A stretch of DNA of 51,299 nucleotides from Phycisphaerales bacterium (GTDB lineage Bacteria > Planctomycetota > Phycisphaerae > Phycisphaerales > SM1A02): contig JAPKCC010000009.1 of the NCBI GenBank assembly GCA_028823105.1, positions 1-51,299 on the forward strand, written 5' to 3'. Made by a program: the position numbers and the translations under genes. The notes under the pieces were generated by a model. It did not search any database and was not told the DNA's origin. It saw only the letters and a program-made list of their open reading frames with translations. This document shows, piece by piece, positions 3,198 through 38,352 of the stretch (position 1 is the stretch's first letter; each line of letters begins with the position of its first letter).

Positions 3198-4940
3198 ATG
3201 CTCATTCCGCTCCTTCTCGCCTTCGGCCCACTGCAAACCGCACCGCCTTGGGATGGATACCTCGATGACACCTCGTTGTCGACCCGTCTGCAAGGCTGGA
3301 CGACGGCCTTCCCGGAACATGTCCGGGTCGACGCATATGGCACCAGCCGAGAAGGTCGTCCGCTGATGGTCGCGACCCTCGCGGGCGATCTGGCCACCGC
3401 CGGGTCGAAGCCAGCGATCCTGGTGGTCGCGGGGCTCGACGGCCTTCATCCCGCGGGAACGGAGTATGCGGTTCGAATCGCCGAACTGTTGCTGGCCGAA
3501 CACTTGGAATCACTTGGTGAAACGACGATCTACGTACTTCCCATCGCCAACCCCGACGGGATCGCCGCCAATCGTGGCAAGGTGAACTTGGGCCGGCGCG
3601 GGGTGAGTCGTCAGGTCGACGGCGATCGAGACGGCACCATTGATGAGGATGGTCCGCGCGATCTCAACGGTGACGGCGTGATCTCGCAGATGCGCTGGCT
3701 TGATCCGCCGCTCTCCAGACCAGCCACGCACCTTCCCGACCCGGCCGAGCCACGGCTCATGAAGACCCCCGACCGTGCCAAGGGCGAAGAGGCGACGCAC
3801 GTGATGATGATCGAAGGCGTTGATGAAGATGGCGACGGTCTGGTCGCCGAAGACGGTCCCGGAGAAGTCCGGCTCGATCGGAACTTCCCCCATCTCTGGC
3901 AGGAGCATTCGGTCGACGCCGGCCCCTACCCGCTGAGTGAGCGGGAGTCCTTGGCGATCGTCGAATTCGTGCTGGCTCATCCAAGAATCGTGGCCGCGGT
4001 CGTCTACGGACCGAACGACTCGGTGGTGGCGATTCCCCCAAGTGACAAGAAGGATCAGACGAACCAGACTCCCCTGGGCATCGATGCCGGCGACAAGAGT
4101 CTCTACACGAAGATCTCCGAGGCGTACGCCGAACACACTTCGCAAAAACGAGCGTCCAACGACGGTGATGAGGGCGGACTCCATTCCTGGCTATACGCGC
4201 ATCGCGGTATTCCCACTGTCTCGAGCAACGGATGGGGTCGTCCGGATCCGACCGCACCGGAAGAAGTCGCGCCGGTGGAGGCTCCCGAAGAAGACAAACC
4301 GCCGGTCGAGGCCGACGGGGGCACCAAAGATGCCGAGACCGAAGAGGTAAAGAAAGAGGAACCACCGAAACCTGCGGACGCTGAAGCGGCCGGCTGGCTG
4401 GCCTGGTCAGATGTGGATCGCGATGGAAGTGGCTTTGTCGAATGGCAGTCGTTCGAGCACCCCACTTTCGGCACCGTCGAAATCGGTGGCATGGTGCCGG
4501 GCTTCAGGTTGAATCCCCCGGCGGACCGGCTGGATGAGATCGCACGCGAGCAAGTTGCCTTCCTTGTCGCCTTCTCGGCGATGCAGCCGGACGTTTCGAT
4601 CGAAGGACCGGAGGTCGAAGCCGTCGGCCACGGAACCTATCGCGTCCGGATGGCAATGGTGAACGCCGGCGGTATGCCGACCCGGACCTCGATGGCTCGC
4701 CGCAACCGGGCGATTCGTCCGATTGTCGTTCGGCTGGAGCTCGAACGGGATCAGATTCTTGACGGTGCGCCCGTCAATCGCATCGACGGGCTCGACGGCG
4801 ATGGCGGACGGGCGACCCTGGACTGGGTCATCCGGCCCAAAGCGAATTCCGTGAGGATTCGGATCGACGATCCGCTCACCGGGGTTCGGACGATCGAAGT
4901 TCCCTTGCCGCAGCAAGGACCAGAGGGAGACGCATCGTGA
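3198..4940 (+). CDS. M14 carboxypeptidase homologue lacking the catalytic residues (pseudoenzyme)
   Basis: A 580-residue probable exported protein with a short hydrophobic N-terminus (MLIPLLLAFGPL). It aligns by eye along its length with the intact M14 enzyme encoded next. Shared features are the PIANPDG strand, two acidic DxDxDG loop pairs (around residues 140-165 and 210-225), the LDRNFP substrate-site motif and a conserved C-terminal beta domain. Every catalytic position has changed: the first zinc His is Gly82, the zinc Glu is Pro85, the third zinc His is Gly271 (VVYGPND), and the catalytic Glu is Gly345 (SSNGWG). A Pro/Glu/Lys-rich insert (about 353-395) and an EF-hand-like DVDRDGSG stretch follow. 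Its stop overlaps the next gene's start (GTGA). It is probably a non-catalytic binding partner or regulator. An alternative metal site using His84/Glu89 cannot be excluded. Confidence 0.83.
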   Translation: MLIPLLLAFGPLQTAPPWDGYLDDTSLSTRLQGWTTAFPEHVRVDAYGTSREGRPLMVATLAGDLATAGSKPAILVVAGLDGLHPAGTEYAVRIAELLLAEHLESLGETTIYVLPIANPDGIAANRGKVNLGRRGVSRQVDGDRDGTIDEDGPRDLNGDGVISQMRWLDPPLSRPATHLPDPAEPRLMKTPDRAKGEEATHVMMIEGVDEDGDGLVAEDGPGEVRLDRNFPHLWQEHSVDAGPYPLSERESLAIVEFVLAHPRIVAAVVYGPNDSVVAIPPSDKKDQTNQTPLGIDAGDKSLYTKISEAYAEHTSQKRASNDGDEGGLHSWLYAHRGIPTVSSNGWGRPDPTAPEEVAPVEAPEEDKPPVEADGGTKDAETEEVKKEEPPKPADAEAAGWLAWSDVDRDGSGFVEWQSFEHPTFGTVEIGGMVPGFRLNPPADRLDEIAREQVAFLVAFSAMQPDVSIEGPEVEAVGHGTYRVRMAMVNAGGMPTRTSMARRNRAIRPIVVRLELERDQILDGAPVNRIDGLDGDGGRATLDWVIRPKANSVRIRIDDPLTGVRTIEVPLPQQGPEGDAS

Positions 4941-6727
4941 ACCAGCATGGAATTACAGACCGTCTGTGTCATCTCGGCCTCGGCGTAGTCTTCGCCCTCC
5001 CGTTCGCAGCGGCTTCTCGCTCCGCGAATGCGCAGCAGCAGATCGAGGCCGAGGTTCCGATCGCCTTCAATCGCTTCTACGACTACGACGATCTCTCGGC
5101 GACCATGGCGGTTCTCGCCGCCGCGCACCCGAAACTTTGCTCGATCCACTCGATCGGAACGAGCGAACAGGGACGCGAGATGTGGCTGCTGACCATCAAC
5201 AATCCCGAGACCGGGCCGGATCTCGCGAAGCCTGCCATGTGGATCGACGGAAACGTCCACGGCAATGAGGTTCAGGCGGGTGAGACCGTCCTCTACGCGG
5301 CCTGGTATTTGCTCGAAGGATATGACGAGGTCCCCGCGATCCGCGAGCTCGTGGACGCGAACGCTTTCTATCTGCTTCCCTCGGTGAACCCCGACGGCCG
5401 CGCGGGCTGGTTCCGTGATCCACACACCCCGAACTCGAACCGAACCGGTCTGCGACCGACCGACAACGATGCTGATGGCCTGCTCGACGAGGACGGTCCG
5501 GAGGACCTCGATGGGGACGGGCACATCGGCCGCATGTGGCGGCCGGATCCCAACGGGACGCATCGTCGCAACGAACGTGACCCGCGGATTTTCGAACGGG
5601 TTCCCGCGGTGCCGGGCCCTGACGGGCGCATCATGCGTGGAAAATGGTCGATGGCCGGAAGCGAAGGCATCGACAACGATGGAGATGGTCGGATCAACGA
5701 GGATGGTGAGGGCGGCTACGACATGAACCGCAACTGGCCGAGTGACTGGCAGCCCACGCACGTTCAGCGCGGTGCGGGGACGCACCCGTTCAGTTATTCC
5801 GAGACCCGAAACGTCGGCGACTTCATCCGTGCCCATCCCAACATCGCCGCGGGCCAGAGTTATCACAACACCGGCGGAATGATCCTCCGCGGCCCGGGTA
5901 CGCCCTACGAATCCGGCAACTATCCTCGCGCCGATCTCCGGGTCTACGACGCCCTCGGCGCGGCGGGCGAGGAGCTGCTCCCCCACTACCGATACATGGT
6001 CATTCATTCGGATCTGTATCCCGTCCACGGAGGGTTCGTGAACTGGCTCTCCGAAGGACTCGGCATCGTGAGTTTTACCAACGAACTGTGGTCGGAGAAA
6101 CGAATCACGCAGAACGGTTCCAACGGCCTCGCCGACGAGGCCGCGAGAATGCGATGGCAGGATCGAGTCTTGTTCGGCCAGACCCACAGCGACTGGACCG
6201 AAGTCGATCATCCCGAATTCGGAAAAGTCCTCGTTGGCGGAGGTACCAAGTACTCCCGTCGGACTCCGCCGCCGTTCATGCTCGAAGAGGAGGCTCACCG
6301 CAACTTCGCCTTCACGATGTTTCATGCTTCGGAGATGCCATCCCTCCGGCTCAACGAGATCATCACCAAGGACCTCGGTGACGGCGTCTGGCAGGTTGAC
6401 CTGGAGATCGCCAACGATCGGATCATTCCAACCCGTCTCGCGCATGCGGCATCGAACAGGATCGGGTTGCCCGATTTCTTGAGTTTCGAGGCGGGCGAGG
6501 GAACAGAGATCCTGCTCGCAGGGCCGGCGACGAATCGATTCGCAAAGACCTTCGACCCCGTCGAATTCAAACCGGAGCGTTTGAAGGTCGAGGCTGGGAT
6601 CAAGGGTAGGAGCATCTCGACCTTCCGGTACATCTTGGCCAGCGATGGCCCGCCGACCGGGACGTTTCATTACCAAGCGACGAAGGCGGCCGATATCACG
6701 ATTCCGCTCGAAGTCGTGGTGGAATGA
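4937..6727 (+). CDS. Secreted M14-family zinc carboxypeptidase
   Basis: A 596-residue exported metallocarboxypeptidase expected to trim C-terminal residues of peptides in the periplasm or outside the cell. The start is GTG, overlapping the previous stop, with GAGGGAG a few bases upstream. A Sec signal peptide runs to about residue 33 (cleavage near SANA-QQQ). The active site is complete: zinc ligands His108 and Glu111 (GNVHGNE), third ligand His310 (SYHNTGG), substrate-site motif DMNRNWP, and catalytic Glu383 (FTNELW). Two acidic loops (DNDADGLLDEDG, DNDGDGRINEDG) look able to bind calcium. The last 140 residues form an all-beta extension shared with the upstream pseudoenzyme. The two genes are almost certainly a duplicated, co-translated pair. 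The exact peptide substrate is not predictable. Confidence 0.9.
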   Translation: MNQHGITDRLCHLGLGVVFALPFAAASRSANAQQQIEAEVPIAFNRFYDYDDLSATMAVLAAAHPKLCSIHSIGTSEQGREMWLLTINNPETGPDLAKPAMWIDGNVHGNEVQAGETVLYAAWYLLEGYDEVPAIRELVDANAFYLLPSVNPDGRAGWFRDPHTPNSNRTGLRPTDNDADGLLDEDGPEDLDGDGHIGRMWRPDPNGTHRRNERDPRIFERVPAVPGPDGRIMRGKWSMAGSEGIDNDGDGRINEDGEGGYDMNRNWPSDWQPTHVQRGAGTHPFSYSETRNVGDFIRAHPNIAAGQSYHNTGGMILRGPGTPYESGNYPRADLRVYDALGAAGEELLPHYRYMVIHSDLYPVHGGFVNWLSEGLGIVSFTNELWSEKRITQNGSNGLADEAARMRWQDRVLFGQTHSDWTEVDHPEFGKVLVGGGTKYSRRTPPPFMLEEEAHRNFAFTMFHASEMPSLRLNEIITKDLGDGVWQVDLEIANDRIIPTRLAHAASNRIGLPDFLSFEAGEGTEILLAGPATNRFAKTFDPVEFKPERLKVEAGIKGRSISTFRYILASDGPPTGTFHYQATKAADITIPLEVVVE

Positions 6728-29179: not shown

Positions 29180-32100
29180 TCAACCCGTGGTCAGCGACGT
29201 GGTCCGGGTCGAGGTTGCCGACTCGCTATCGGTGCTGGGTCCAGACCCGGTCTTGCGGGACCAGGTCAGCGGCGCGGCGATCACCACGGACGAGTACGTC
29301 GCGGCGATCAGGCCCACAAAGAATGTGAACGCAAACGGGCGGATCCCCGTTCCGCCGAGTGAATAGAGCACCATCGCCGAAGTGATCGTGGTACCACTGG
29401 TCATGATCGTTCGGCTGAACGTCTGGTTGATGGAGTTGTTCACCACATCAAGCGATGCATAACTCAGCTTTCCGCGGTTCTCGCGGATGCGGTCGAGAAT
29501 CACGATCGTATCGTTGAGCGAATAGCCGACGATGGTGAGCAATCCGGCGACCACGTTGAGATCGATTCGAATTTCGTCGAGGACCCGGACCCCGGCAATG
29601 CTCGTCTCGCCGATGACCAGACTCAACGCAATCGCTCCGAGGCAGATGCTGATGTTGAAGAGCAACGCGGAAATCGCGCAGACCGAGTAACGGAGCGAGC
29701 CGAACCGGAACCAGATGTAGACCAGCATGCCGAGCAGGCTGAGAATCACCGCCACGATGGCGCTGGCGGCGAGATTCTGCGCTACCTTCGGGGAGAAACT
29801 CGACTGATCGAGGCTTGCTTCTCGCGTCAACGCGGCCTGGATGAGTTCATATTCACGCTGCGCCAGCCCACGATCCCAAGTGTCCAACGCGACTTCGAAG
29901 CTGGAGAGCCCGTCGTCGAAGACCATGACCGCGATCGAGGAGAACGTGGAATCGTCCCCTGCGACGCCCGCTTTCTCGAGCCCCACCACTTCCATGTTTC
30001 GTCCGGCGGTATCACTGAAATCTGGCTGATTCCGCATGCGGAGGATCCGCTCGTCGACATCGACGAGCGTGATTGGCGGAACGATTCCGTCGATCACTAC
30101 GGCGACGCCGCCGCGGTACGCATCGACAGGCATCGTGACACCGCTTCGGCCGATCGACTCCCCGAGCGATTTCCGTTCAAGCGGGAAGGTGTGGCTGCTG
30201 TAATCGGGGTCCCCTTCGGCGTCGAAGTGGACCGGTTGGATCACCGCCAGGACGTCGCCAAACTGCTCGACCAATGCATTGACCACGTGGTCGGCGATGT
30301 TCTCATTGTCATCGATGCCCGGCGGGTTGGCGACCTTGACCTGGAAACTTCCCGCCTCGTTGTTCGCGGTCGTGGTCCCGATCGTCAGCACCGTGGCGTT
30401 GGACAACTGGGCGAGGATTCGATCTTCGGGATGCGTGTCGCCGATCTGGTGTACGCGGTCTTCGACCTCGCCGCGGGTGAGAAGCAGACGGCCGGTGAGG
30501 TCACGATCTGTTCCCGCGACCTCCCCGTCCTGCGCCGCCCGAGTGGTCATCTTGACACTGACCCCGCCCCGGAATTCGGTCTCCAGGACGTCGGAACCTC
30601 TCGCAAAGAACAACACCAGCGAGCCAACCGCCAGCACGGTGCTCATCACCAGGAGCGGGCCCCGGAGGGAGACCCAGTTGATCTTGGGTTCAAGGAGACG
30701 ATGGATCGAGGGGAACACGGTGGGAAGCATCGGGAGCGACTTCAGCCTGAACACCTCTGTGCAGATCGCAAAGAGGACTCGGCTGACGAAGAGCGATGTG
30801 AAGAGCGTCGAGAGCACGCCGATCGAAAGCGTGAGGGCGAATCCCTTCACTTCCGTCGCCGCGGTCTGATACAGGATGAAGCAGACGATCAGGTTCGTGA
30901 TATTGCCGTCGAGGATGGCGCTTGCCGCCTTGGCGAAACCAATTCGAATCGAATCGCGAAGGTCTTCACCGTTGTTGATCAGTTCCTCACGGATTCGCTC
31001 GAAGATCAGAACGTTGGCATCCACCGCCATACCCACGGTCAACGCGATACCCGCGAGACCCGGAAGCGTGAAGGTCCCGTCGATCATCGCCATGATTCCG
31101 AAGATCATGACCGCATTGATGAAGAGCGAGATGACCGCGATCAGGCCTGCTCCGAAGTAATAGAGCAGCATGATCACCGCGACGATGACCACCGAGATTG
31201 CGACCGCTCGAAGACCTCGAAGCAGATTGTCCTGGCCGAGCGCCGGTCCCAGAATGCTGGTTGAAATCGGTTCCGGACTGAGACGAGCTTCTAGGCTGCC
31301 CGCCGCGAGCACTCTGATCAAGTAGGTCACTTCGGCCTCGCCGAAGTTGCCTTGAATGATGCCTCTCGAGCCAATGGCGCTGTTGAGATTCGGCGCGGTA
31401 TAGACCTCGCCGTCGAGCACGATGGCCATCGGCTGGTTGATGTTCGGCGAGGTCAGTCGGCGCATCATCGAACCGCCGGCGCTGTCAAGACCGAATGACA
31501 CCGCGGGACGCCCGAGGTCATCGATGGTCTGGCTCGCCTGGCGGATCGCCCAGTTGTCGCCGCTGGTGTGCGTCATGCTCTTCTCGGGCGTGACGTACAA
31601 AAGGATGAATCGAAGACCGTCCTTCTCGTCGGCGACGAGGTTGTATCGCGACTGGAAGTATGCGACGGGATCGGCGATCAGGGCTTCGACCGACTCCGGA
31701 CGATCCTCGTCGGTCCACTGCTTCAGATCGTTGATCGGGAACCATTTGGCTACCGGAGAGTCAGTGCTGTTTGCCCCCCGCTCGGCGAGCTGTTCGCGCA
31801 AAAGCGTGATCGGAACGTCCAACGCCCCGGGTCGGACTGCGATTCGGAATTCGAGCACGCCGGCACCGCGAAGGAGCCGTTTGAGATCCTCGGGATCATC
31901 GAGGCCTGTTCGTTCCGCTTCAAACGCGGCATAGGCCGATGCGAGTGTGGCGATCTGGGCGGCGAGATGCGGAAATTCGAGTTCGAGCTCGGCGAAGGCG
32001 ACGGCCCGATCGCTGGTGGCGGGATCGAGGTTGCCATCCGCATCGCGGAGACGTGGCGTCCCTTCGAGGGCGAGGATGTTGAATAGACGATCGTCTCCGA

Positions 32101-32704
32101 AGGATTGGGAGAGAATCGTGTTCTGAAGTTCCTCAACCGTGATCTCGGCTCTGGCGATTCGATCGAGCAGTCCGTTGACTCGGATTTCGTCGACCGGATC
32201 GCCGGCCTGCGCCTCGGTCAGATCCGCCCGAGCGGCTTTCGCTTGATTCCATGCCGCCTGGAGGCGATCGAGTTCAGCCTTGCGTTTGCTGGTCCCGCCG
32301 TACTTCGCGGAGGCATCACCGGCGTCGAGCGCGGCATCCAGCTTGCTCGGACGAATCCGTGATACCGCCAAGAGCGCGTCGAGCGCATCTCGATAGGTCT
32401 GCTGCAACGCGCGAACCTGATCGTTGGGAAGCGGCATCACGACTTCGATGCGATCTCGTCCGACCGGTTGCATCCCGATGTCGAGAATGCCCTGCGGATT
32501 CACCCGCTGCTTGAGGACATCGATGGTCTGCGCGAGGACTTTGTCAGGCTCGGCCCCCTCGGCGATCTTCACGGAGTAGACCAGGCTGACGCCGCCTTGA
32601 AGATCCTTGCCGAGTCGAATCTTCTTCTGTGGCGGATAGACGGACCAGAGACAGACGCCGACGATCAGGCCGATCAGGACGAGCTTGGGAATAATGTTCT
32701 TCAT
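29180..32704 (-). CDS. secDF: Fused protein translocase SecD-SecF
   Basis: A 1174-residue inner-membrane protein that uses the proton gradient to pull preproteins out of SecYEG. The SecD half begins with a membrane helix and RLGKDLQGGVSLVY (about 31-44). A very long periplasmic P1 region follows with an all-helical charged stretch (about 100-260). Membrane helices carry motifs such as GIALTVGMAVDANVLIFERIREE. The SecF half starts near residue 680 with its own LETEFRGG motif (about 710), a periplasmic domain and final helices with VVAGLLTIVGYSLNDTIVILDRIREN. Both six-helix sets are present. The P1 region is longer than in E. coli SecD. It follows yajC after 105 bases containing a 9-bp repeat array. 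Confidence 0.96.
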   Translation of the reverse strand: MKNIIPKLVLIGLIVGVCLWSVYPPQKKIRLGKDLQGGVSLVYSVKIAEGAEPDKVLAQTIDVLKQRVNPQGILDIGMQPVGRDRIEVVMPLPNDQVRALQQTYRDALDALLAVSRIRPSKLDAALDAGDASAKYGGTSKRKAELDRLQAAWNQAKAARADLTEAQAGDPVDEIRVNGLLDRIARAEITVEELQNTILSQSFGDDRLFNILALEGTPRLRDADGNLDPATSDRAVAFAELELEFPHLAAQIATLASAYAAFEAERTGLDDPEDLKRLLRGAGVLEFRIAVRPGALDVPITLLREQLAERGANSTDSPVAKWFPINDLKQWTDEDRPESVEALIADPVAYFQSRYNLVADEKDGLRFILLYVTPEKSMTHTSGDNWAIRQASQTIDDLGRPAVSFGLDSAGGSMMRRLTSPNINQPMAIVLDGEVYTAPNLNSAIGSRGIIQGNFGEAEVTYLIRVLAAGSLEARLSPEPISTSILGPALGQDNLLRGLRAVAISVVIVAVIMLLYYFGAGLIAVISLFINAVMIFGIMAMIDGTFTLPGLAGIALTVGMAVDANVLIFERIREELINNGEDLRDSIRIGFAKAASAILDGNITNLIVCFILYQTAATEVKGFALTLSIGVLSTLFTSLFVSRVLFAICTEVFRLKSLPMLPTVFPSIHRLLEPKINWVSLRGPLLVMSTVLAVGSLVLFFARGSDVLETEFRGGVSVKMTTRAAQDGEVAGTDRDLTGRLLLTRGEVEDRVHQIGDTHPEDRILAQLSNATVLTIGTTTANNEAGSFQVKVANPPGIDDNENIADHVVNALVEQFGDVLAVIQPVHFDAEGDPDYSSHTFPLERKSLGESIGRSGVTMPVDAYRGGVAVVIDGIVPPITLVDVDERILRMRNQPDFSDTAGRNMEVVGLEKAGVAGDDSTFSSIAVMVFDDGLSSFEVALDTWDRGLAQREYELIQAALTREASLDQSSFSPKVAQNLAASAIVAVILSLLGMLVYIWFRFGSLRYSVCAISALLFNISICLGAIALSLVIGETSIAGVRVLDEIRIDLNVVAGLLTIVGYSLNDTIVILDRIRENRGKLSYASLDVVNNSINQTFSRTIMTSGTTITSAMVLYSLGGTGIRPFAFTFFVGLIAATYSSVVIAAPLTWSRKTGSGPSTDSESATSTRTTSLTTG

Positions 32705-32809: not shown

Positions 32810-33244
32810 TCAGGAAGATTCTTCCTCGGGCTCGAGCACCTGCTGGACGGCATCACGAGCGAAGGTCATCCGCGTGTTGCTGCTCTCGTCCACCTTGAGA
32901 AGGATCGTGTCAGGCTTGATCTCGACCACGGCGCCGATGACGCCACCGATGGTTCGAACACGATCGTGCTTCTTCACACTGCTGATGAGCGCCTCTCGCT
33001 TCTTGCGTTCCTTTCGTTGTCCGAAGACGCTGAAGAGGATCATCACCAAGATGAGCGGGAGGAACATGAACATGAGAAGGCTGCTTCCACCTTCGCCGCC
33101 GGCGGCTTCGGTATCTCCACCGGTGGCGCCTTCCGCAGAGGTGGTGCCAGTCCCCTGTCGCCCAAGTGGTGGCGTGGCCTGCCCGAGGGTCAGGAGTGAA
33201 CCATGTGGGGAGGACAGGGAGACGAAGTTGATCGAGTCGATCAT
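32810..33244 (-). CDS. yajC: Preprotein translocase subunit YajC
   Basis: A 144-residue single-pass membrane protein that associates with SecDF. A Gly/Ala/Thr-rich N-terminal region of about 55 residues is longer than usual. It is followed by the YajC helix (LMFMFLPLILVMILFSVF), the basic GQRKERKKREAL stretch and the family motif KKHDRVRTIGGVIGAVVEI. E. coli YajC has 110 residues, so the extra length is all N-terminal. It overlaps tgt by four bases (ATGA). The tgt-yajC-secDF order is conserved across many bacteria. Confidence 0.93.
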   Translation of the reverse strand: MIDSINFVSLSSPHGSLLTLGQATPPLGRQGTGTTSAEGATGGDTEAAGGEGGSSLLMFMFLPLILVMILFSVFGQRKERKKREALISSVKKHDRVRTIGGVIGAVVEIKPDTILLKVDESSNTRMTFARDAVQQVLEPEEESS

Positions 33245-34509
33245 GATTGGGACAGACCTTCCGAGTCGGAATCAGGCCCCGGGCCGTCGCCATTTGACGG
33301 CACGCTCGATGGCCCCCCAAGGTCCGGAAATGGACTTTGAGCGGCATCGAGAACCGGCCAGCGGCCGGCGAGCGAAGACCAACAATCATCCCGGATCACG
33401 GTCCGAATGTCCAGCAGGAGCCGTTGGAAGTGCCGGAGGTTGTGAAGGCTGCAGAGGATCGGGCCGATCATTTCCTTCGCGAAGAAGCAATGGCGGAGAT
33501 AGGCCCGGCTGAAACCGCCGGCACAGGCGGGACAGTCGCAAGATGGATCGATGGGTGAAAGGTCCTCCCGAAACCGGGCGTGCCGGAGTCGGAGCGGCCC
33601 TGTGGAGGTGAAGACCGACGCCATACGCCCGTTTCGGGTCGGTAGGACGCAATCGAACATGTCCACCCCCGCGGCCACGGCCATGACGATATCCCGCTCG
33701 TACCCGACGCCCATGAGGTATCGAGGGCGATCCACGGGAAGCCGCGGCGCTGTGAATTCCACAACTTCTCTGATCTTTTCCGGTCCTTCTCCGACCGCGA
33801 CGCCCCCGATCGCATATCCGGGAAGGTCAAAACCACAGACCCCCTCGATGGACGCGGCTCGAAGATCCAGATCCGTCCCGCCTTGCACGATGCCAAAAAG
33901 CGCCTGCTCGTCCGGACGGGCGTGTGCTTGAATACACCGACCCAGCCAGCGGATCGTCCGTTCGTGCGCCTCTCGGAGTCGTCGCTCCCAGTCACGCGGC
34001 GTAGGGAGCTTCGCTCGCGGGCTTCCCGCGCCATGCTTGGCATGAGGCGATGGCGGGCAATCATCGAAGGCCATGATGATGTCCGCTCCGATGGCGTTCT
34101 GAACCCGCATCGACGACTCAGGACCGAGATGGACCTTTGCCCCGTCGACGAACGATCGGAAGGAAACGCCGTCTTCATCGATCGCATTCATGTCCGACAT
34201 CGAGAACGCCTGATATCCCCCGGAGTCGGTGAGTACCGGACCGTCCCATCTCATGAACTGATGGGTGCCTCGGAATCGTTCGAGAAGTTCGATACCCGGG
34301 CGGATCATGAGGTGATAGGCGTTGTTGAGAATGATCTCCGCCCCGACGCTTCTCACTTGCTCAGGCAGAACGCCCTTCATCGCGGCGGCGGTCGCGACCG
34401 GCATGAACGCCGGCGTGGCGAAGCGGCCATGCGGTGTCTCCACGAAGCCGGCTCGCGCATGATTCGTCGAGCATTCGGACTCGATCGTGAATCGAACGGG
34501 GCCGGTCAC
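33241..34509 (-). CDS. tgt: tRNA-guanine transglycosylase
   Basis: A 422-residue enzyme that swaps guanine 34 for preQ1 in tRNAs with GUN anticodons, a step of queuosine synthesis. The N-terminal GFVETPHGRFATPAFMPV, the first catalytic Asp in LTDSGGYQAFS, the nucleophile Asp in GVDMFDCVLPTRNGR, and the zinc site (CDCPAC plus the His in CSLHNLRH) are all present. It runs somewhat past the usual 375-380 residues. No queuosine synthesis gene lies nearby; its position ahead of yajC-secDF is the standard synteny. Its start overlaps the rhomboid gene's stop by four bases. Confidence 0.96.
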   Translation of the reverse strand: MTGPVRFTIESECSTNHARAGFVETPHGRFATPAFMPVATAAAMKGVLPEQVRSVGAEIILNNAYHLMIRPGIELLERFRGTHQFMRWDGPVLTDSGGYQAFSMSDMNAIDEDGVSFRSFVDGAKVHLGPESSMRVQNAIGADIIMAFDDCPPSPHAKHGAGSPRAKLPTPRDWERRLREAHERTIRWLGRCIQAHARPDEQALFGIVQGGTDLDLRAASIEGVCGFDLPGYAIGGVAVGEGPEKIREVVEFTAPRLPVDRPRYLMGVGYERDIVMAVAAGVDMFDCVLPTRNGRMASVFTSTGPLRLRHARFREDLSPIDPSCDCPACAGGFSRAYLRHCFFAKEMIGPILCSLHNLRHFQRLLLDIRTVIRDDCWSSLAGRWPVLDAAQSPFPDLGGPSSVPSNGDGPGPDSDSEGLSQS

Positions 34510-35747
34510 CGTCGCGAAACCTCACGGAGAACTTTCTTCTCCTTCGATGTCAGGCTCTGGAGCCCGTTCTTGTGGATTTTCGCGAGAATCCGATCGATTT
34601 CGGCGTCGGCGACCGTGCTGCCTGCCCCTTGGATCTTGCCCGCGCGGTACGCGGCGCCGCTTCGGCTGGTGGGGTCGTACCTTCCGAGGAAGTCGAAGAA
34701 CCCGTGAAGCGCCTGCGGATGCCGGATCAACCAGAACCCCGCGATGGCGCCGCCGATATGCGCCGCCTCACCTCCGGCGTTGTCGCGTCCGAAGATCACC
34801 GTGAACAAGGCGATTCCGACCATGCCGTACGCCAGCGTCGAGAGCCGCATGGGAATGATGAAGAAGAGGAGCACCCTGGCATTTGGAACCAGGAAGGCCG
34901 AGGCAATCACCACGCCAAAAACACCCGCGCTGGCGCCGACCAACGGCGTCCCCGGGTCGTTCATTAACAGGACGGGAAACTCCTTTCCCGTCAACTGAAG
35001 TACGGTCCAACCCGTGAAGTTCAGCAGCAAGTAAGACGCAGCGCCGGCCATGCCACAGAGCAGGTAGAAGGCGAGATATCTCTTGCCGCCCAAGAATTGC
35101 TCGACGAGGCTGCCGAAGAAATACAGCCCGATCATGTTGAAGAGCAGGTGGGTGAAATTCGCGTGCAGGAACTGGAAGGAGATGAACCTCCAGAATTCGA
35201 ATCCTCGGAGACCCCAGAAATTGTCGAGCTGCAAGAGCGCCGTGGCAGTGGAGAAGTAGCCGTAGACCCAGATCGGTCCGTTGATCACGACCTCTTCGAG
35301 GAGCTGAACTTGGCCCTTTCGGGTGTTCCCATCCTCGTCTCGACTCGTATACGTCCCCATCGCGGGGGCGAATCCGGTGGGTGTCGATTCGAGCACGGGC
35401 ACGATGTAGGACCCGCGCGGGTTCTTACCGAATCTGAAGGGCACGAGCCCCTTCGAACCATGCACGAAGACTGGCCACTTGCCTTCGGTGAGCTGCATCA
35501 GGGTCGGCAGCCGGAGTTTTCCGCGTTCGACGGGGTCCAGGACGGCGTTTTCGGGAAGGTTCGGGGCGACCGATTGTAGTGGCGCCATCGTGGGCGGTAG
35601 GAACTGATCAAGCACGAAAACGGCGACGCAGATCGTGATCAACCATCGATTGACCGACCACCCGGCGATTGCTGATCCACGGCCGACCAGCCGGGATGGG
35701 CCCCGACCGGTGGACGGTCTTGAATAATCTCGGTCGTAGATTCCCAT
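34506..35747 (-). CDS. Rhomboid-family intramembrane serine protease with large lumenal insert
   Basis: A 413-residue polytopic membrane protein. The catalytic serine is Ser273 (GASAGVFGV) and the histidine is His330 (AAHIGGAIAGF). The conserved WRFISFQFLHANFTHLLFNM segment precedes them. An N-terminal helix (about 33-50) is separated from the core by some 120 residues of soluble, beta-rich sequence, far longer than the usual loop. The C-terminal tail is basic and ends in KSLTSKEKKVLREVSRR-like residues, similar in style to the tail of the neighbouring M50 homologue. A protease cutting membrane or exported proteins fits its place among Sec genes, but its targets are unknown. Confidence 0.9.
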   Translation of the reverse strand: MGIYDRDYSRPSTGRGPSRLVGRGSAIAGWSVNRWLITICVAVFVLDQFLPPTMAPLQSVAPNLPENAVLDPVERGKLRLPTLMQLTEGKWPVFVHGSKGLVPFRFGKNPRGSYIVPVLESTPTGFAPAMGTYTSRDEDGNTRKGQVQLLEEVVINGPIWVYGYFSTATALLQLDNFWGLRGFEFWRFISFQFLHANFTHLLFNMIGLYFFGSLVEQFLGGKRYLAFYLLCGMAGAASYLLLNFTGWTVLQLTGKEFPVLLMNDPGTPLVGASAGVFGVVIASAFLVPNARVLLFFIIPMRLSTLAYGMVGIALFTVIFGRDNAGGEAAHIGGAIAGFWLIRHPQALHGFFDFLGRYDPTSRSGAAYRAGKIQGAGSTVADAEIDRILAKIHKNGLQSLTSKEKKVLREVSRR

Positions 35748-35826: not shown

Positions 35827-36906
35827 TCAAGGGGGTGACGTCGAATCATCCCCCGGTGGCTGCGCCCGTCGTCGCTCGGTCGCGTCCGCGAGGTGTTTTC
35901 GTTCGTTCGGGTCGAGCGCGGCGATGCCGTGCCGGGCGATCTTCTCCAGAATCCGGTTCAGTGACGCTTCCTCGCTGGCCAGTACTTCGGATCGCTGGAA
36001 CGCCGCATGCGACTCGGCAGCATCTTGTTCGGCGGCGTCCTGCTGGTCGAGGATGGCATCCAGCCGGATATCGACCACCTGGGCGTCCGCGCCGCCCACG
36101 ATCTCGCCGAGTTCCCGAAACCGCTGATGCGATCGTTGGAGCAATGCCGCCGAGAGAATGGCGATCAGCACCGGAACGAGGTTGAGACTGAGAATGCCCG
36201 CCACCGCCAACAGGATGGCGGTGGCGATTCCGACTCGATGGGCGGTCCGGCGAGACGCCGCTGGTCCCAGCCGCGGTCTCAGAATCGCCTCGAGCATCAA
36301 CTGGCCTCGGAACGGGGTCACCGGGAGCAGGTTCGCCACGCTCACCAGCGTCGCGGCGATACCGAAGAGGTAGAGGCCTTCCAGCCAGACCGATTCCGCG
36401 ACGCCCGGCGCATAGATGCCGGAAAAGGTGAACGGGTTGGGAGTCGGGGCAATTCCGGATCCGAGGTAGATCGCGGTGATCGCGAGGACGGCACAGAGCA
36501 TCGTCACGCCGGGTCCGACCATCGCCGCGATGAGGCTCTTGCGGCAACCGGGGGGCGAGACGCCGTTCTCGAGACCTCCGAGCGGTTGAAGGACGATCTC
36601 CGGGAGATCGCCGCCAAGACGTCGAATGACGATCATGGTCGTGACCTCGTGAATGAACACGGCACTACAAAGACCTGCGACGAAGAGGGCCGCGGGAACC
36701 GGTCCAAGGAAGAAACTCAGGTCCCCTGCAAACCAACCTGCTCGCACCAGAATGACCACGATGGCGGCCAGCAAAAGGGCATGAACTCGGATCATGGTGC
36801 CACCGAGCCGCAGAATCGGCACGGACCAACTAAGCGGATCGCCAAACTTCGGCGCCGCCCGGTGAGTCGGGAACGCCGAGAGTGGTCGTTCATCATCCGG
36901 CTTCAT
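35827..36906 (-). CDS. Site-2-protease (M50) homologue with degenerate active site
   Basis: A 359-residue multi-pass membrane protein resembling M50 metalloproteases: helices with IRVHALLLAA, then FIHEVTTMIVIRRLGG, VLQPLGGLENG and NLLPVTPFRGQLMLEAIL. In active members the first motif is HExxH and the last has LDG. Here only His86 and Glu87 remain; the second His is Thr90 and the Asp ligand is replaced by Arg200 (PFRGQ). Zinc binding is therefore unlikely. The C-terminal 100 residues are soluble with a helical, acidic region. ATG 36906 overlaps the NUDIX stop by four bases; ATG 36915 is possible. It could be a scaffold or binding protein for membrane clients of the neighbouring rhomboid protease. 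Confidence 0.82.
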   Translation of the reverse strand: MKPDDERPLSAFPTHRAAPKFGDPLSWSVPILRLGGTMIRVHALLLAAIVVILVRAGWFAGDLSFFLGPVPAALFVAGLCSAVFIHEVTTMIVIRRLGGDLPEIVLQPLGGLENGVSPPGCRKSLIAAMVGPGVTMLCAVLAITAIYLGSGIAPTPNPFTFSGIYAPGVAESVWLEGLYLFGIAATLVSVANLLPVTPFRGQLMLEAILRPRLGPAASRRTAHRVGIATAILLAVAGILSLNLVPVLIAILSAALLQRSHQRFRELGEIVGGADAQVVDIRLDAILDQQDAAEQDAAESHAAFQRSEVLASEEASLNRILEKIARHGIAALDPNERKHLADATERRRAQPPGDDSTSPP

Positions 36907-37496
36907 CGCGGCCATCGATCACCGTCTCGATCCTTCGCTCGGAAGAGATACCAGGCCGCGATGGTCTTTCCATCATCGATCCGACCTTCGAGAATCGCCC
37001 GATCGATCATGTCGGGCGTCATCCGGACCACCTCGATCTCCTCCCCGGGTTCCAGGCGCTGTGGAACTGCGGACAAATCTGTCGCCGCGAAGGCGTGCAT
37101 TCGTTCGTCGCAAAATCCCGGACTCGTGAAGTAGGCGGCGATCGGATCGATGCGACCCGCGTGCCGACCGATCTCCTCTTCAAGCTCTCGGCCAGCGGCT
37201 GCCAGCGGCGACTCTTGCGGTTCGAGTTTGCCCGCACAGAATTCGAGCAACATTCGCCCCACGGCGAGTCGACCGACTTCGACCATCAGAATAGATCCAT
37301 CCGCCTCGATCGGAATCACCGTGACCGCGCCCGGGTGGCGGACGACGTCCTTGCGAATCCGTCGCCCGTCAACCTCGAAGTCATATTGCTCGACGCGGAT
37401 CACCGGTCCTTGATGACAGACGACCCCTTTGGTGCCGAGGCCTGATGGGCGTCGGTCCCCGGAAGATCGGATTCCTTGTTCGTCGGGCATTTGCAT
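36903..37496 (-). CDS. NUDIX hydrolase (ADP-ribose pyrophosphatase type)
   Basis: A 197-residue hydrolase of nucleoside diphosphate compounds. The NUDIX box is complete: GKLEPQESPLAAAGRELEEE followed by IG, matching Gx5Ex7REUxEExGU. The upstream VRHPGAVTVIPIEADGSILMVEVGR and the later AYFTSPGFCDERMHAF segment fit the ADP-ribose pyrophosphatase branch. I chose ATG 37496, which follows GGAG by six bases; ATG 37490 is also possible. It is the first gene of the eight-gene minus-strand run and is divergent from the MlaF-like gene across 22 bases, so the two promoters must overlap the other gene's start. Confidence 0.9.
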   Translation of the reverse strand: MQMPDEQGIRSSGDRRPSGLGTKGVVCHQGPVIRVEQYDFEVDGRRIRKDVVRHPGAVTVIPIEADGSILMVEVGRLAVGRMLLEFCAGKLEPQESPLAAAGRELEEEIGRHAGRIDPIAAYFTSPGFCDERMHAFAATDLSAVPQRLEPGEEIEVVRMTPDMIDRAILEGRIDDGKTIAAWYLFRAKDRDGDRWPR

Positions 37497-37518
37497 CCTG
37501 TGCTCCAACGGGGATGAT

Positions 37519-38352
37519 ATGTCCATGATCGCTGATTCCGAAACCCAACTTCCTCCGATCACCTCGCTTCGGGGTGTTTGGAAGTCCTTTGATGGCCGCC
37601 CCGTCCTTCGTGACCTCGATCTGGACGTCGAGACGGGTCAATCCCTGGTCGTCATGGGGACCAGCGGATGCGGCAAGAGCGTGATGCTCAAGCACATCGT
37701 CGGCCTGCTCCGTCCCGATGCGGGTGAAGTCTTCTTCAAGGGAGCACGGGTCGATCAACTGAGTGAGCGTCACTTTACGCCGATCCGCCGGCAAATCGGA
37801 TTCCTCTTTCAAAGTGCCGCGCTATTCGATTCGATGACCGTTCGTGACAACGTGGCCTTCCCGCTCCTTGAGACCGGGCAGGCGGGGCCAGATCTCGAAG
37901 ACCGAGTACGCCGCACGCTGGATCGAGTCGGTCTCGCGGACAATCTTGATCAGATGCCCTCCGAGCTCTCCGGTGGAATGCGGAAGCGGGTCGGATTGGC
38001 CAGGGCGATCGTGCTCGAGCCGGAGATGATCCTCTACGACGAACCCACCACCGGCCTCGACCCGATCCGAGCCAACGTGATCAACGATCTGATCGTCCGC
38101 CTTCAACGGGAACTCAACATCACCAGCGTGGTCGTGACCCATGATCTCGATTCGGCCTTCCAGGTCGCCGATCGAATGGTGCTCCTTCATGACGGCCGGG
38201 TTCGCCTCGACGCCACCCCGGATGAAATGCGACATTCCGAAGATCCGGTGGTTCGGGCATTCTTGGAAGGGCGTGAGCTCATGCCACACGAGGCAACGCA
38301 CGAACCTACGCACGAGCACGAGCGGTCAAATCCTGCGAAGATGCCCACATGA
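37519..38352 (+). CDS. ABC ATPase of an MlaFEDB-type lipid transporter
   Basis: A 277-residue ATPase close to MlaF, which powers phospholipid movement between the membranes with MCE proteins. Walker A is MGTSGCGKS, the Q-loop is LFQSAALFDSMTVRDNVAFPL (typical of MlaF), the signature is LSGGMRKRVGLARAI, Walker B is ILYDEPTTGLDP and the switch is VVVTHDLDSAF. The C-terminal tail is rich in His, Glu and Thr (HEATHEPTHEHE). ATG 37519 or 37525 may start it. The stop overlaps the MCE gene (ATGA). No MlaE-type permease lies beside it. Confidence 0.92.
   Translation: MSMIADSETQLPPITSLRGVWKSFDGRPVLRDLDLDVETGQSLVVMGTSGCGKSVMLKHIVGLLRPDAGEVFFKGARVDQLSERHFTPIRRQIGFLFQSAALFDSMTVRDNVAFPLLETGQAGPDLEDRVRRTLDRVGLADNLDQMPSELSGGMRKRVGLARAIVLEPEMILYDEPTTGLDPIRANVINDLIVRLQRELNITSVVVTHDLDSAFQVADRMVLLHDGRVRLDATPDEMRHSEDPVVRAFLEGRELMPHEATHEPTHEHERSNPAKMPT

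Follow-up and report, generated by a model that had tools for sequence, protein, structure and literature searches.

The 51,299-nucleotide window of Phycisphaerales DNA analysed here (contig JAPKCC010000009.1) encodes, beside a rhomboid protease, a homologue of site-2 proteases (S2Ps) that lacks two of its three zinc ligands. As judged from the sequences of its relatives, the zinc site has been lost repeatedly at this one locus, at least four to six times according to a tree of the S2Ps and about ten times according to a tree of the neighbouring rhomboids. Our preferred reading, which we put forward tentatively, is that an active S2P at this position gave rise to a pseudoprotease whose gene has been stably kept, and that the protein may act as a non-catalytic, rhomboid-associated scaffold for binding clients, with a buried ion pair taking over from the zinc.

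An S2P homologue without two of its zinc ligands

The pseudo-S2P gene (35827–36915, minus strand, 362 amino acids, M50 fold) is orthologous by position and by sequence to S2Ps with an intact HExxH motif. It lies between a NUDIX hydrolase gene (36903–37562, minus strand) and an intact rhomboid gene (34506–35747, minus strand), just as the original prediction had placed it. The four-base overlap with the NUDIX gene that was also claimed holds when the pseudo-S2P is read from its second Met, an alternative start at 36906, but from the first Met (36915), which occurs in all relatives, the overlap amounts to 13 bases. Alignment to homologues places the stretches VFIHEVTTMIVIRRLGG and NLLPVTPFRGQLML in the columns of HExxH and (L/M/F)DG, the hallmarks of active S2Ps, both of which are absent from this protein as from all seven members of its genus that have the gene. 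HExxH is replaced by HEVTT (H89 E90 V91 T92 T93; 36637–36651, minus strand) and P(L/M/F)DG by PFRG (36304–36315, minus strand). Two of the three zinc ligands are lost in this way, the second His having given way to T93 and the Asp that forms the third ligand to R203, while H89 and E90 are kept; in 103 intact relatives H93 and the third-ligand Asp are both 100% conserved. The alignment thus bears out the reading of HEVTT and FRG as the marks of an S2P homologue that has lost two metal ligands.

The window protein scores only 23.4 bits against the Pfam M50 family (PF02163), for which the cut-off is 27.2; where the whole domain is matched in other members of the genus, the scores are 26.7–43.8 bits, four of them 30.5–43.8. 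Despite this sub-threshold score, its membership in the S2P superfamily, by both fold and descent, is secure from profile matches and from the predicted structure. With the family profile, 3B4R, an S2P of known structure, is hit at 8.6e-37 and SpoIVFB at 7.8e-11, and a Foldseek search with the AlphaFold2 model (pLDDT 87, pTM 0.81) retrieved 3B4R with an E-value of 1.1e-9 and a TM-score of up to 0.77, followed by SpoIVFB. Identity to intact S2Ps encoded in the same NUDIX-S2P-rhomboid-TGT order is 28–37%.

The gene was found in seven of the eight genomes of the window's genus (g1). The original prediction had suggested searching relatives for the same substitutions, and all seven genomes with the locus do share them, as HExx[T/N] together with an invariant PFRG. 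An apparent joint loss of S2P and rhomboid in the genus member G003 is uninformative, as the contig breaks inside SecDF. In all seven assembled genus loci the reading frames are intact, at 362–364 amino acids, across about 50% divergence, and HE, PFRG, GG, N195, P201 and the core of the C-terminal DUF6576 tail are fixed. Between close genus pairs, whose synonymous distances are about 0.7–1.2, the dN/dS of the pseudo-S2P is 0.14–0.22, values that are approximate since they were obtained by the Nei-Gojobori method. Compared with the rhomboid next to it, the pseudo-S2P changes at about double the rate (median dN ratio 2.2). The ratio of S2P to rhomboid dN is about 0.65–1.0 in many intact genera, but reaches 1.3–1.9 in the intact genera g7, g14 and g29, and it is raised in g1, g50 and g51. 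The low dN/dS and the intact reading frames, yet with protein change about twice that of the rhomboid, indicate that the gene is maintained under somewhat relaxed constraint. Loss of the catalytic residues together with purifying selection on the sequence supports its description as a pseudoenzyme under selection. Relatives with intact HExxH and LDG, combined with signs of recent decay here, had been named in advance as what would overturn this picture; distant relatives are indeed intact, but the genus shows no sign of recent decay, and intact reading frames, genus-wide fixation and low dN/dS rule out a recent pseudogene there.

The gene had also been counted as the second protease-like pseudoenzyme in the window. 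The other one is probably the first of two tandem M14 carboxypeptidase homologues (3198–4940 and 4937–6727, plus strand; 29% identical), in which the zinc motif reads DGLHPAGTE and HxxE is seemingly lost; the second homologue has HGNE.

A conserved gene cluster and a tail shared with the rhomboid

The pseudo-S2P and rhomboid genes belong to a cluster on the minus strand, of which the NUDIX gene is the upstream member. Past the rhomboid it continues with a tRNA-guanine transglycosylase gene (TGT; 33241–34509), which overlaps the rhomboid gene by four bases, and a YajC-like gene (32810–33244), assigned by its position and its conservation in the cluster, and it ends downstream with a fused SecDF gene (29180–32704). 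The order NUDIX-S2P-rhomboid-TGT-YajC-SecDF recurs across the order, at loci L078–L117, in the majority of genomes from five or more families, and most S2Ps at these loci carry HEFGH, HEYGH or HELGH plus (L/M/F)DG. Since the cluster order is the same and the S2Ps elsewhere are mostly intact, the window gene can be regarded as orthologous, by position, to a protease that is intact. Coincidence as an explanation for the rhomboid neighbour was ruled out, the S2P-rhomboid pair being order-wide and ancient. When 251 genomes of the order were searched, the S2P was found in 188 (missing from 63) and the rhomboid in 244 (missing from 7). In 20 genomes where a rhomboid was found without an S2P match, the S2P is cleanly missing (loci L252–L271), and the rhomboid directly adjoins the NUDIX gene, or the next cluster gene where NUDIX was undetected. 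As these related genomes keep their rhomboid, the rhomboid in general does not need the S2P. Several of them are small, at about 2.0–2.8 Mb.

The rhomboid of the window (Pfam Rhomboid, 92 bits) has the catalytic Ser in GASAG and the catalytic His in AAH, and none of the 144 complete syntenic rhomboids lacks either residue, regardless of the state of the S2P (intact, altered or absent). Its model includes a stretch of about 120 residues (about 53–181), mostly beta strands, between the first helix and the catalytic core, which sets the protein apart from a minimal rhomboid.

The predicted structures of the rhomboid and of the pseudo-S2P end in the same helix-turn-helix, which in the latter is carried on a long helix. 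In the rhomboid this is a DUF6576 tail (34509–34604, minus strand; 42–46 bits) with predicted helices at residues 379–394 and 401–412. The corresponding tail of the pseudo-S2P (residues 314–343; 35887–35976, minus strand) comprises the end of the long helix and the hairpin helix, its predicted C-terminal helices spanning residues 278–329 and 336–351. It scores 21.6–24.9 bits against PF20216 (DUF6576), below the cut-off of 27.3, and four relatives score 29.6–31.7. The DUF6576 core, L..K....G...L...E...L, is found in the pseudo-S2P, with L323, K325, G330, L334, E338 and L342 fixed in the genus. The tail is kept in 33 of 33 altered S2Ps, and where DUF6576 is present in the window's genus it occurs exactly twice per genome, once on the rhomboid and once on the pseudo-S2P. 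Across the phylum, the DUF6576 proteins at all loci inspected were either rhomboid-like or S2Ps, with the one at L284 classed as rhomboid-like by its GPSGG. The sharing of a tail by unrelated proteases encoded side by side suggests that S2P and rhomboid may dock on one another or on a single shared partner. Our literature search for DUF6576 found no paper on it.

Two further observations concern these proteins. The rhomboid-like protein at L284 (523–1611, plus strand), encoded in a different family of the phylum, lacks any obvious motif for the catalytic His and is a candidate pseudo-rhomboid with a DUF6576 tail. In addition, an MGxxDRDY-like N-terminal motif, possibly a second shared signal of the S2P-rhomboid pair, is seen in 110 of 123 syntenic rhomboids, 30 of 103 intact S2Ps and 0 of 7 genus pseudo-S2Ps, and in 69 of 2277 other long ORFs (loci L078–L247).

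Repeated loss of the zinc site

We obtained 140 S2Ps with readable motifs, of which 137 bear the tail; 33 of these 137 are altered, a fraction that is no estimate of prevalence, as the sample was picked to include divergent matches. The altered zinc sites differ from lineage to lineage. The window's genus has HExxT with FRG, g26 has RExxR with LDG, g50 has HExxR with LAA or LTG, and g51 has HDxxR or QDxxR with AGG or PGG. In family f4, genus g33 has HEIGK or HEIGR with LDG or LDA, and in family f2 the genera g96, g107, g130 and g132 have RExxR or HEIGR with the Asp kept. RExxH, RExxG and KExxR, each with LDG, occur in genus g84 of f2, which also has an S2P with HELAH, so that a single genus holds a compact natural series of losses (L187, L188–L192). 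In g115, also of f2, the S2P at L202 (2665–3993, plus strand) has HDLGH with LDG, thus keeping all zinc ligands while the catalytic Glu is changed to Asp.

With the catalytic residues masked, the S2P tree calls for five or more changes between intact and altered states, four of which are forced by well-supported branches. A 52-sequence subset requires six, and on this subset, without a mixture model, the AU test rejects a single origin of the altered S2Ps (p-AU about 1e-26). The rhomboid tree, which provides an independent marker, requires about ten altered/intact changes. All altered S2Ps of the window's family are grouped by the S2P tree with 82% support, but this grouping may reflect long-branch attraction, since the rhomboid tree places g1 and g26 beside the intact g7 and g14. 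The retention of the gene beside a working protease and its independent, repeated losses of the zinc site suggest that the dead protein has a job other than cutting.

Each of the 32 ligand-losing S2Ps has an Arg or a Lys in at least one of the three ligand columns and retains an acidic residue at the E90 or the Asp position; in the window's genus the two are R203 and E90. A buried ion pair (R203–E90) instead of the zinc would be a natural reading of these replacements. For the His positions this argument is weakened by codon structure, because in GC-rich DNA a His codon readily becomes an Arg codon through one substitution; Asp-to-Arg and His-to-Lys take two base changes each.

Possible roles and relation to known systems

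According to the scaffold reading, the emptied zinc site would be held by the buried R203–E90 ion pair, not by metal, and the old substrate groove would bind transmembrane clients or stubs cut by the rhomboid. The pseudo-S2P could then bring these to its rhomboid partner or withhold them, and the matching C-terminal DUF6576 hairpins would dock the two proteins mutually or to a cytoplasmic partner common to both. In genera whose S2P is intact, it and the rhomboid would cut one after the other, and in the window's genus the rhomboid would cut alone. The original prediction had suggested that the protein, like iRhoms, might bind membrane clients and steer their fate; this gains some indirect backing from the order-wide adjacency to a rhomboid that is always intact and from the DUF6576 tail on both proteins, which the prediction had not noted. 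What weighs against the scaffold reading is the faster change of the pseudo-S2P relative to the rhomboid, as would fit relaxed constraint, and the retention of the rhomboid in 20 related genomes that have no S2P. Extended to Phycisphaerales as a whole, the scaffold reading would amount to a two-protease membrane module of S2P and rhomboid, tied by DUF6576, whose S2P half was repeatedly switched off via an Arg/Lys ion pair and turned into the rhomboid's client-binding subunit; we regard this wider proposal as possible but doubtful.

The serious main rival is a slow decay, in which these lineages no longer need S2P catalysis and their pseudo-S2Ps are long-lasting stages leading up to deletion. 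It draws its weight from the deletion of the S2P in several related genera and from g51, where altered S2Ps and clean NUDIX-rhomboid deletions exist side by side; it also fits with the absence of the S2P from 63 of the 251 genomes as compared with only 7 for the rhomboid, and with the raised dN ratio to the rhomboid in g1, g50 and g51. The gene would then be retained for a time only on account of the cost of a misfolded membrane protein or of its coupling to the operon. Intact frames of 362–364 amino acids in 7 of 7 assembled genus loci, at about 50% divergence and with a dN/dS of 0.14–0.22 between close pairs, speak against such a decay, as does the fixation of HE, PFRG, GG, N195, P201 and the tail core in the genus, and we consider it unlikely. 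We give a rather low probability to a non-catalytic role that has nothing to do with the rhomboid, for instance in keeping other membrane proteins stable or in assisting the Sec machinery encoded nearby. Such a role has a precedent in EGY3, which stabilises chloroplast proteins without catalysis, and the cluster does run on into YajC and SecDF; however, the DUF6576 tail links the S2P to rhomboids specifically, and the neighbouring TGT, YajC and SecDF are housekeeping genes of wide distribution. It is very improbable that the protein is still a hydrolase that works through H89 and E90 with an altered chemistry or a different metal site. These two residues are invariant in the genus, but two of the three ligands are gone, one of them now Arg, and other lineages have lost H89 too or changed E90 to Asp, so the residues that are left are not, as a rule, kept together for catalysis.

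One syntenic gene that turned from intact into dead on several occasions, beside a partner that is never dead, forms a natural series. It allows one to ask what a membrane protease does when it does not cut, and whether a basic residue can replace a structural metal. The locus further suggests that the DUF6576 tail connects two families of intramembrane proteases that are not related to each other.

The pseudo-S2P shares its core fold and aligned motif columns with MjS2P (PDB 3B4R) and SpoIVFB (8VJL), but these are active zinc proteases with HExxH and DG, and the aligned part of neither has a DUF6576 tail. Closer in kind is EGY3, a dead chloroplast S2P that has physiological effects and acts without catalysis (PMC9355673, PMC10978774). 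It is likewise a conserved S2P-family membrane protein without HExxH and with a non-catalytic role, and has been described as the sole pseudoenzyme with homology to the S2P family, restricted to plants (PMC9355673). EGY3 represents a single plant lineage, whereas the Phycisphaerales case is bacterial and involves repeated losses, and the parts of the EGY3 reports that we consulted describe no rhomboid partner gene or DUF6576 tail (PMC9355673, PMC10978774). Our literature search, whose coverage left out most subscription papers, found no earlier case of a bacterial pseudo-S2P. An S2P pseudoenzyme as such is thus already known, and what is new here is a bacterial one that arose repeatedly at one conserved locus beside a live rhomboid. 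The iRhoms, dead rhomboids that control rhomboid clients (PMC3149277), resemble the proposed scaffold in being dead homologues of intramembrane proteases acting on clients of rhomboids. They are eukaryotic members of the rhomboid superfamily, whereas the window protein has the fold of an S2P metalloprotease and is encoded in a bacterium beside a live rhomboid, so that the likeness is a functional analogy only. In Bacillus subtilis, the rhomboid YqgP acts as a substrate adaptor for FtsH independently of its own proteolysis (PMC7231995); there, too, an intramembrane protease serves as adaptor for another membrane protease, but the adaptor is an active rhomboid and its partner is FtsH.
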